A stretch of 64,000 nucleotides of DNA. Origin: Thiospirochaeta perfilievii. Its GTDB lineage: Bacteria; Spirochaetota; Spirochaetia; DSM-2461. The translations under genes and the position numbers were made by a program. Below, piece by piece: positions 21,603 to 37,502 of the stretch. The stretch is from the NCBI RefSeq assembly GCF_008329945.1, contig NZ_CP035807.1, forward strand, positions 868,001 to 932,000, written 5' to 3'. The notes below the pieces were generated by a model. The model did no database searches. It was not told the origin of the DNA and saw only the letters and a program-made list of their open reading frames with translations. Position 1 is the first letter of the stretch, and the number at the start of each line of letters is the position of its first letter.

Positions 21603-21692
21603 ATTCTGTATAATATCAGATATAAATAACTTATAGAATAGTATTGATTACTAATAGAAGCTTATGGATAATAAAAAATTATAGAGGTTAAA

Positions 21693-35541: not shown

Positions 35542-35612
35542 CGTATTTTCCTTATCAATATATATTACACTTTAAAATATTTATTTTAAAAGCCTAATTG
35601 TTATATAATACA

Positions 35613-35641
35613 TTGACTATAGTAATAATTACTATTAACTT
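35613..35641 (+). promoter_or_regulatory. Promoter with operator palindrome for the dsbA-arsR-nitroreductase operon
   Basis: A -35-like TTGACT (35613-35618) is followed by exactly 17 bases, ATAGTAAT-A-ATTACTAT (35619-35635), a perfect 8-bp inverted repeat, then TAACTT as a poor -10. An alternative TATAAT lies at 35604-35609, which would put the palindrome near the start site. Either way, the ArsR-family repressor encoded in the operon is the natural candidate to bind it. Confidence 0.6.
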
Positions 35642-35669: not shown

Positions 35670-36293
35670 ATGAAAATAGAAGTGTGGTCTGATTTTGCTT
35701 GCCCTTTTTGTTATATTGGGGAGACAAAACTAAACAGAGCATTAAAAGAGTTAAATTTAGATGATGAAGCTTTGATAGTTTATAAGAGTTTCCAACTAAA
35801 TCCAAATGCAACTAGCCAAAAAGGTAAGGATCTAAATCAACTAATATCTGAAAAATACGGTATCCCCTATGAGCAAGCTGTTGCTTCAAATAGAAATATA
35901 GTTAATGTAGCAAAGGAGTCTGGCCTTAATTTTAACTTTAATAAGATTCAACCTGGGAATACAGCCTTAGCCCATGAGTTACATAAATATTCAGAAACAA
36001 TTAATAAGGACCTAGAAATGGCAGAGGTCATATTTAAAGCTTATTTTGAAGATGGTATTGATATTAGTGATAAAGTGGAACTTATTAAACTAGCAAATAA
36101 GGTTGGAATTAAAGAGGAGGAAGTAGAGGATATTTTTAATAATAAAAAATTTAGTAATGCTGTGATAGAAGATCAGAATTTAGCAATTAGTAATGGAATA
36201 AACAGTGTCCCATTTTTTGTTATTGATAATAAAAAGACTATTTCAGGAGCACAGAGTATCGAGCATTTTAAAATGGTATTAGGTGAAAATTAA
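35670..36293 (+). CDS. DsbA-family (FrnE-like) oxidoreductase
   Basis: About 207 residues; a thioredoxin-fold protein without signal peptide, with the CPFC active site at residues 11-14 (MKIEVWSDFACPFCYIGE) and the helical insertion typical of FrnE/2-hydroxychromene-2-carboxylate isomerase-like proteins. The cis-Pro loop is SVPFFVIDNK. It probably reduces or isomerises disulfides in the cytoplasm. ATG 35670 is preceded by AAAGGAATTAAT. First gene of an operon with an ArsR repressor and a nitroreductase, which suggests electrophile or oxidative-stress defence. Confidence 0.9.
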   Translation: MKIEVWSDFACPFCYIGETKLNRALKELNLDDEALIVYKSFQLNPNATSQKGKDLNQLISEKYGIPYEQAVASNRNIVNVAKESGLNFNFNKIQPGNTALAHELHKYSETINKDLEMAEVIFKAYFEDGIDISDKVELIKLANKVGIKEEEVEDIFNNKKFSNAVIEDQNLAISNGINSVPFFVIDNKKTISGAQSIEHFKMVLGEN

Positions 36294-36340
36294 CATTAGC
36301 CTAAATTTTTTTTACAATATTGGTTTATAGGATTAAACGA

Positions 36341-36667
36341 ATGGACAAAGAAGCAGAGAAGTGTAGTTTGGATCTTTTTCGTAAATGTATACCATATTTT
36401 GAGGTTCTTGCTGATGAAAATCGTCAAAAACTGGTACTACTACTAGCTGAAGGTCATCAGGTTCTAAACGTGGGAGATATAACAGAGAAAGTATCCCTAT
36501 CAAGACCTGCAGTTTCACACCACTTAAAAATACTTTTAAGGGCGGGAATGGTAAACTATACAAAAAAAGGAACCCAAAACTACTATTTTTTAACTATAGG
36601 ATCCATGGTGAAAGTTTTGAAAGATTTTGTAACTACAGTGGAGAAGACATGTACAAAAAATACATAA
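36341..36667 (+). CDS. ArsR-family transcriptional regulator
   Basis: A ~108-residue winged-helix protein: FEVLADENRQKLVLLLAEG, then VGDITEKVSLSRPAVSHHLKIL (recognition helix), LRAGMVNYTKKGTQNYYFL (wing). No CxC metal site of ArsR/SmtB in the DNA-binding helix is visible, although Cys residues occur near both ends (Cys8, Cys15 and Cys105), so a redox- or electrophile-sensing mechanism is possible. It is 9 bases before the nitroreductase and 47 after the DsbA-like gene. Confidence 0.88.
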   Translation: MDKEAEKCSLDLFRKCIPYFEVLADENRQKLVLLLAEGHQVLNVGDITEKVSLSRPAVSHHLKILLRAGMVNYTKKGTQNYYFLTIGSMVKVLKDFVTTVEKTCTKNT

Positions 36668-36676
36668 GGAGTTTTT

Positions 36677-37414
36677 ATGAATAAAACAATTAATACAATT
36701 AAGGACCACAGATCAATTAGACAGTATACGGATAAGGATATTGATAATAGTGAGTTAAATGCAATTTTAGAAGCAGCCCATGCAATGCCAACGTCAATCC
36801 ATGGACAGCAGTTATCAATAATTGTGGTTAAAGATAAAGATAGAAGGGAAAAAATATCAGAACTTGCGGGAAACCAACCCTGGATAGCTAAGGGTCCTGT
36901 TTTTTTAGTATTTATTATGGATATGAATAAAACAGCAAAGGCTGGAGAAAAGGCCGGACTACCCCAGGTAATACAAGAGAGTGCAGAGGGTGTTTTAGTT
37001 TCAAGTTTTGATGCAGGCCTAGCAATGGGAGCAGCTATAATTGCAGCTGAATCTTTAGGTCTAGGTATTGTTCCAATTGGTGGAATTAGAAAAAGCCCCC
37101 AGGAGATGATTGATCTACTAGAACTACCTAAAAATACTTTCCCAGTTGCAGGCTTAGTAATAGGACACCCAGAGAATATGTCTGGGAAAAAACCAAGATT
37201 ATCCCTAGAGAGCTTTGCCCATAAAGAGAGGTATAATGATGAGATTGTAACAAAAGCTGTTGATGATTTTGATATTGAAATAGCTAAGTATTATGAGAAA
37301 AGAGGGGATAAGAGCAGTAATTGGAGTGACCAGATAGCTGGATTCTACCAGCAGGTTTATTTCCCTTTGGTTTACCCTACACTTAAGTCCCAGGGATTTA
37401 CATTAGATAAATAA
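36677..37414 (+). CDS. NfsA-like FMN nitroreductase
   Basis: A 245-residue nitroreductase-fold protein. HRSIRQYTDKDI at the N-terminus binds the FMN phosphate, and GLGIVPIGGIRKSPQEMIDLL and GLVIGHP are the other conserved segments; it is closest to oxygen-insensitive NfsA types. It should reduce nitroaromatics, quinones or related electrophiles with NAD(P)H. Third gene of the DsbA-ArsR operon, followed by a strong terminator. Confidence 0.9.
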   Translation: MNKTINTIKDHRSIRQYTDKDIDNSELNAILEAAHAMPTSIHGQQLSIIVVKDKDRREKISELAGNQPWIAKGPVFLVFIMDMNKTAKAGEKAGLPQVIQESAEGVLVSSFDAGLAMGAAIIAAESLGLGIVPIGGIRKSPQEMIDLLELPKNTFPVAGLVIGHPENMSGKKPRLSLESFAHKERYNDEIVTKAVDDFDIEIAKYYEKRGDKSSNWSDQIAGFYQQVYFPLVYPTLKSQGFTLDK

Positions 37415-37470
37415 GTAAAGTTTTTATAAAATATTTATTTAAAAAATAAACTACTAGGGTTAGTATTTAA

Positions 37471-37502
37471 AAGAGTCTGTTTTTAAAGTAGACTCTTTTT
37501 TC
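37471..37502 (+). terminator. Rho-independent terminator after the nitroreductase
   Basis: A perfect 8-bp stem AAGAGTCT / AGACTCTT (37471-37478, 37490-37497) followed by TTTT, between the nitroreductase and the beta-glucosidase gene. Confidence 0.85.

Follow-up and report, generated by a model that had tools for sequence, protein, structure and literature searches.

Rodionov et al. (2004) predicted a PerR box, AwnAGnAAtngTTnCTnwT, before perR, rbr2 and ahpC in Desulfovibrio (accessible part of PMC545781), and these Desulfovibrio sites are themselves predictions. For B. subtilis the same excerpt gives the PerR box as TTATAATnATTATAA. Among spirochaetes, Leptospira has two PerR-type Fur proteins, PerRA and PerRB, and genome searches with canonical boxes gave no further matches (PMC8638967, as far as the available text goes). 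Thiol oxidoreductases of the FrnE type have been studied separately: Deinococcus radiodurans FrnE and Listeria Lmo1059 are both tied to oxidative-stress tolerance (accessible part of PMC10715225), and PerR is unmentioned in the text of that paper (0 occurrences). Thiospirochaeta perfilievii is called oxygen-tolerant in the title of its species description, as given in the reference list of PMC7380536.

The DNA analysed here, referred to as the window, is a stretch of 64,000 nucleotides of the T. perfilievii chromosome. It contains the perfect palindrome ATAGTAATAATTACTAT at 35619-35635, with 8-bp arms that are 100% complementary around one central base, between TTGACT (35613-35618) and TAACTT (35636-35641), as had been described in the first-pass annotation. 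The 15-bp core TAGTAATAATTACTA (35620-35634) is a 7-1-7 inverted repeat, TAGTAAT-A-ATTACTA, a layout of the Fur-family type, and is separated by 35 nt from the ATG of a dsbA-like gene. The gene order dsbA-like, arsR-like, nitroreductase, also taken from that annotation, agrees with the coordinates and with Pfam:

35604-35609, + strand: alternative -10 TATAAT, read as TTTATT-18-TATAAT
35670-36293, + strand: dsbA-like gene, FrnE-type cytoplasmic DsbA (PF01323, E 5.4e-38)
36290-36318, + strand: promoter-like TTAACA-17-TACAAT (10 of 12 matches)
36320-36341, no strand assigned: candidate ArsR operator, TTGGTTTATAGGATTAAACGAA, which reaches the start codon of arsR and has a 20-mer in common with genome G022
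36341-36667, + strand: arsR-like gene, ArsR/SmtB-family regulator (PF01022, HTH_5, E 1.4e-13; NF033788 above cut-off)
36677-37414, + strand: NfrA2/YcnD-type nitro/flavin reductase (PF00881; NfrA2 5hei, E 2.1e-73)
37469-37499, + strand: terminator-like hairpin at the end of the operon (14 pairs with a loop of 3 and a T-rich tail)

The dsbA product has a CPFC active site, a CxxC near the N-terminus, and no signal peptide when the sequence is read by eye; its best solved relative is FrnE (E 2e-30). Lmo1059 of Listeria also carries CPFC and, in the same accessible part of PMC10715225, deletion of FrnE renders D. radiodurans peroxide-sensitive, which makes an FrnE-type dsbA a plausible PerR target.

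The window box shares its 7-1-7 layout and an AGnAAT core with the Desulfovibrio PerR box and, by a hand count, the 19-mer 35618-35636 agrees with it at 12 of 14 specified letters, so that the T. perfilievii box belongs to a known kind of operator. In contrast to Desulfovibrio, the box is fully AT-type with TAGTAAT half-sites, the host is a spirochaete, and the target set described below is larger, as it adds tpx, TlpA-CcdA, BFD and the dsbA-arsR-nitroreductase operon (compared with the accessible part of PMC545781). With the B. subtilis box it has in common the 7-1-7 repeat, the inner TAAT and the targets, i.e. peroxide genes and perR, although TAGTAAT differs at half-site positions 2 and 3 (5/7 match). 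As PerR boxes differ between clades, according to the excerpted PMC545781, this mismatch bars only the name B. subtilis-type PerR box.

A motif scan of the rest of the genome had been suggested in the first-pass annotation, and it is in its recurrence that the sequence stands far above chance. The core TAGTAATnATTACTA occurs exactly 8 times in the 3,700,583 bases of the T. perfilievii P genome (G000; chromosome of 3,667,739 plus a 32,844-bp plasmid, PMC7380536), against 0.12-0.21 expected from Markov models (orders 1-4) that were trained on 162 kb of the genome (P about 1e-10 to 1e-12). All eight boxes are found 12-73 nt 5' of an ORF, and non-coding DNA at most 100 nt ahead of an ORF that has at least 100 aa makes up only 4.1% of the sampled DNA, a length limit under which one of the ORFs behind the boxes, BFD (68 aa), falls. 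The distances from box to start codon were:

105-aa ORF: 28 nt (no Pfam family matched)
flavodoxin: 13 nt (Pfam)
dsbA, in operon with arsR and nitroreductase: 35 nt (Pfam)
thiol peroxidase tpx: 67 nt (Pfam)
TlpA-CcdA: 53 nt (Pfam)
BFD-like [2Fe-2S] protein: 12 nt (Pfam)
PerR-like Fur-family gene: 73 nt (Pfam)
ahpC: 20 nt (Pfam)

By Pfam these are mostly peroxide or thiol genes. The ahpC gene is followed on its 3' side by a flavodiiron-type protein, a second peroxiredoxin and desulfoferrodoxin, with class I nrdAB divergent from it, and a rubrerythrin-family gene comes after the PerR-like gene. When one mismatch was allowed, 17 places (8 exact and 9 others) were found in G000 as compared to 6 for a reversed control, and most of the nine one-mismatch places may thus be chance.

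Conservation of the box was analyzed at 11 perR orthologues of the class, i.e. those of G000, nine other genomes of its family and G043 from another family, with the more distant Fur paralogues at L051 and L053 left out of the count. Each of the 11 carries, in the 100 nt before the gene, a sequence that fits the box at 11/14 or better; in 7 the fit is at least 12/14, the box of G043 being exact (14/14), while permuted half-sites average 0.7 of 11. Two permuted controls, TAATAGTnACTATTA and TAATGATnATCATTA, also reached 11/11, but with 6 and 4 orthologues at 12/14 or better against 7 for the true box, and they look like the true repeat read in degenerate form or with a 3-base shift. In a wider set from named genomes, 21 of 78 perR homologues have a box of at least 12/14, the top value among 140 half-site permutations (ahead of the 139 others; mean over the 140, 0.7). 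This set includes Spirochaetales, Desulfovibrionaceae and other Desulfobacterota, Lentisphaerae, Lachnospiraceae and others; 80 homologues were fetched and 2 dropped for too little upstream DNA. The congener G001 has two exact sites, before tpx and before the homologue of the 105-aa ORF, both of which are box genes in G000. No perR orthologue was found in this 81% complete genome, where the best match is 28%. The G001 dsbA box is weak (11/14), and since 5 of 36 G001 upstream stretches, drawn from loci picked for motif matches, also reach at least 11, we do not count it as support. At the dsbA-like genes of G002 (41%), G017, G043 and G038 no box is convincing (the top score per locus is 8-11 of 14), and these genes, the last three more distant, are probably paralogues.

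The T. perfilievii genome encodes two Fur-family proteins. One is the product of the box-bearing PerR-like gene:

G000:C1:3503178-3503552: PerR-like Fur-family gene (FUR domain, PF01475)

Its best solved relative is 6dk4, annotated Fur (E 1.6e-16), with B. subtilis PerR 2fe3 marginally behind (E 2.2e-16). The ligand positions H21, D68, H74, H76 and D87 are invariant in all 11 perR orthologues, and so are the cysteines 79, 82, 120 and 123, which form two CxxC pairs. The five ligand positions align with H37, D85, H91, H93 and D104 of B. subtilis PerR. Three His and two Asp, with Asp rather than Glu, make up the metal-site set of peroxide sensing. In the recognition helix, VYRNL, Arg45 is likewise invariant in the 11 orthologues, at a position where B. 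subtilis PerR has Asn. Asn for PerR versus Arg for Fur at this position is used as a criterion in the available text of PMC8638967, and the G000 protein has the Fur-type Arg. Judged from its sequence, the regulator combines a PerR-type sensing site with a Fur-type DNA-reading residue, and for this reason it is filed here as PerR-like and not as a B. subtilis-type PerR. Leptospira PerRA and PerRB also have Asp in the sensing site, but their C-terminus lacks the CxxC and their helix has Asn, where the T. perfilievii protein has CxxC and Arg; and unlike the Leptospira genomes, that of T. perfilievii yielded a clear box (compared with the accessible part of PMC8638967).

Taken together, the eight genomic sites before genes, the 11/11 perR orthologues and the 21/78 perR homologues argue that the palindrome at 35619-35635 is most likely a PerR-type operator. 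Very probably, PerR represses the dsbA operon and hydrogen peroxide releases it, with the ArsR acting one layer below. At low peroxide a PerR-like dimer holding its regulatory metal, presumably Fe(II), would bind the 7-1-7 repeat and block the dsbA promoter. Hydrogen peroxide would oxidise PerR, the repressor would leave the DNA, and the FrnE-type dsbA, arsR and the nitro/flavin reductase could be transcribed. AhpC, Tpx, flavodoxin, TlpA-CcdA, the [2Fe-2S] BFD protein, the 105-aa protein and PerR itself would be co-induced. ArsR, at the internal inverted repeat 36320-36341, may then tune arsR-nitroreductase in response to another signal, probably thiol or electrophile stress.

How the box is placed relative to the promoters bears on the direction of this control. 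In the first-pass annotation the palindrome filled a promoter spacer, so that a bound repressor would cover the promoter. The pair TTGACT-17-TAACTT is indeed present at 35613-35641 on the + strand, with a -35 of 5/6, but TAACTT matches TATAAT in only 3/6 positions and the pair is not among the promoters listed by a promoter scan. With this weak -10 and with perfect TATAAT readings on either side of the dsbA box, the spacer-filling arrangement is possible, not established. A -10 at 35604-35609 would instead set the operator over the transcription start, like at ahpC, and three promoter readings are possible for dsbA. What is supported in the proposal is that the palindrome very probably serves as an operator for a repressor and overlaps or adjoins the dsbA-arsR-nitroreductase promoter. 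At the other genes the box lies against or over the best-scoring -10 (flavodoxin, BFD and ahpC) or can occupy the -35/-10 interval (105-aa ORFs, where TTGAC is also found 10-13 nt 5' of the box in both G000 and G001). Directly upstream of the best-scoring -35 is where it stands at tpx (G000 and G001) and at perR, and there repression fits less simply. This placement would suit PerR binding as an activator, or with a dual effect at some promoters, a variant that overlaps with our best explanation. Known PerR proteins mostly repress, however, and from -35 to start the box overlaps or abuts the best promoter elements at flavodoxin, BFD, ahpC and the 105-aa ORF, so we regard this variant as unlikely.

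We reject as highly improbable the proposal of the first-pass annotation that the ArsR encoded in the operon reads the palindrome and thereby controls the entire unit. Repression of the operon that encodes them is common among ArsR-family proteins, and arsR does lie within this operon. The seven further exact sites, however, have no arsR among the nearby ORFs, and the box stands at perR genes of other genomes. Moreover, dsbA and nitroreductase are adjacent in G001 with arsR absent between them. The ArsR orthologue of G022, a genome of another genus, is 76% identical and has a locus without the box (best 10/14), in an operon of arsR, monooxygenase (named by eye) and nitroreductase that has no dsbA, and what the two arsR loci share is a candidate ArsR repeat that sits elsewhere, at 36320-36341. 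Within this region ATTGGTTTATAGGATTAAAC, 20 identical bases (36319-36338), is common to the window and the arsR-abm gap of G022, and the flanks differ. In G022 the exact repeat TTGGTTTGAAAGGTTAAACCAA precedes arsR and TTGGTTTATAGGATTAAACCAT precedes the gene after it; nowhere else does that genome have a place within one mismatch, and the two other one-mismatch places in G000 are both inside ORFs. Since a scan of G000 at 2 mismatches is at control level (40 places vs. 39) and genome-wide uninformative, the case for the ArsR site rests on the common 20-mer and on the ORF-internal position of the other places. The promoter-like TTAACA-17-TACAAT at 36290-36318 could separately drive arsR-nitroreductase; the region around it holds no more promoter-like sites than shuffles. 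By eye, the ArsR has no recognised metal-binding motif of the kinds compared, the helix 3 Cys pair and the helix 5 His/Asp site; LCVGDL of SmtB is aligned with LNVGDI. The nitroreductase was found at E 1e-30 or better in 3 of 26 genomes of the family (G000, G001 and G022 only), and it is reasonable to suppose that an ArsR-nitroreductase module was joined with a PerR-controlled dsbA.

The other Fur-family protein adjoins a znuA-like gene and is presumably Zur. That this Zur-like protein binds the palindrome would agree with its presence in the genome and with the half-site, as TAGTAAT is one base off the TCGTAAT of Zur boxes, whose consensus TAAATCGTAATnATTACGATTTA is quoted in the accessible part of PMC545781. 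None of the 17 exact or one-mismatch places is at the zur-znuA genes, though, the target genes are redox genes, and the box precedes perR orthologues, not zur; Zur as the reader of the box was rejected for want of sites at zur-znuA, and we hold it to be highly improbable. The string GTAATnATTAC occurs in PMC545781, inside the Zur consensus, and in PMC2706843, and exact spellings of the box were not found in a regulatory paper.

Least probable of all is a chance AT-rich palindrome with no function, which agrees with the palindromicity of the window alone (2 perfect odd palindromes whose arms are 8 or longer, vs. an average of 2.8 over 30 simulated sequences) but not with eight exact copies that all lie close upstream of genes, nor with conservation of the box at orthologous genes. 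Such palindromes are not unusual in a window this AT-rich, where bare ones occur at chance level, and rarity of the palindrome was rejected as evidence for function.

Our partial literature search turned up no paper in which this operon is named among the targets of PerR. Control of an FrnE-type dsbA/arsR/nfrA operon by PerR, together with the two layers, appears modestly new. The PerR-type reading turns an ambiguous palindrome into a regulon, with eight sites, a regulator and peroxide-defence targets in an oxygen-tolerant spirochaete. It gives a clean DNA code for a PerR clade present in many anaerobes and ties the Arg/Asn position of the recognition helix to another half-site. It also predicts a part in the peroxide response for an FrnE-type thiol oxidoreductase and a nitro/flavin reductase, and a site of action elsewhere for ArsR. 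We see about even chances for a broader hypothesis, in which a widespread PerR clade with peroxide-type sensing and a Fur-like Arg reads TAGTAAT, and in T. perfilievii an ArsR-controlled nitroreductase module was captured through a box-bearing FrnE-type dsbA to give a two-input operon. If so, TAGTAAT would be a fourth half-site beside TTATAAT (PerR), TGATAAT (Fur) and TCGTAAT (Zur). The operon would then respond to peroxide, via PerR, and also to another redox or electrophile signal, via ArsR at the internal site.

Some further observations were made. The 105-aa protein (G000:C1:31427-31744, - strand, locus L024), which has no Pfam match, is 41% identical to its G001 homologue (L063:1166-1480, - strand). 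An exact PerR-type box precedes the ORF start by 20-28 nt in both genomes, which makes it a candidate for a conserved, uncharacterised peroxide-response protein. Among the one-mismatch sites, only the second site at ahpC is retained as plausible. This degenerate box, TAATAATTATTACTA, is located at G000:C1:3508896-3508972 (L029) between the ahpC box and the divergent class I nrdAB, and suggests common control of the oxygen-dependent ribonucleotide reductase and the peroxiredoxin. The one-mismatch box TAGTAATTTTTACTA (G000:C1:2442046-2442060; L020, L031) is found about 55-75 nt before a cysteine-synthase-like gene, which is followed by a sulfhydrylase-like gene (both named by eye), and is a possible further target that would tie peroxide to cysteine supply. 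In the window, TAGTATTGATTACTA at 21638-21654, also with one mismatch, is followed after about 40 nt by an ORF that by eye is threonine-dehydratase-like, and may be chance. The small monooxygenase-like gene of the G022 ArsR operon (L159:1865-2152) is of the ABM/YgiN type by eye; its presence there, with no dsbA, is a hint that ArsR senses quinone-like or electrophilic compounds. Finally, a 9-bp inverted repeat, TTTAAAATA/TATTTTAAA, is present at 35571-35590 of the window, between a divergent pectinesterase-like gene and the dsbA operon.
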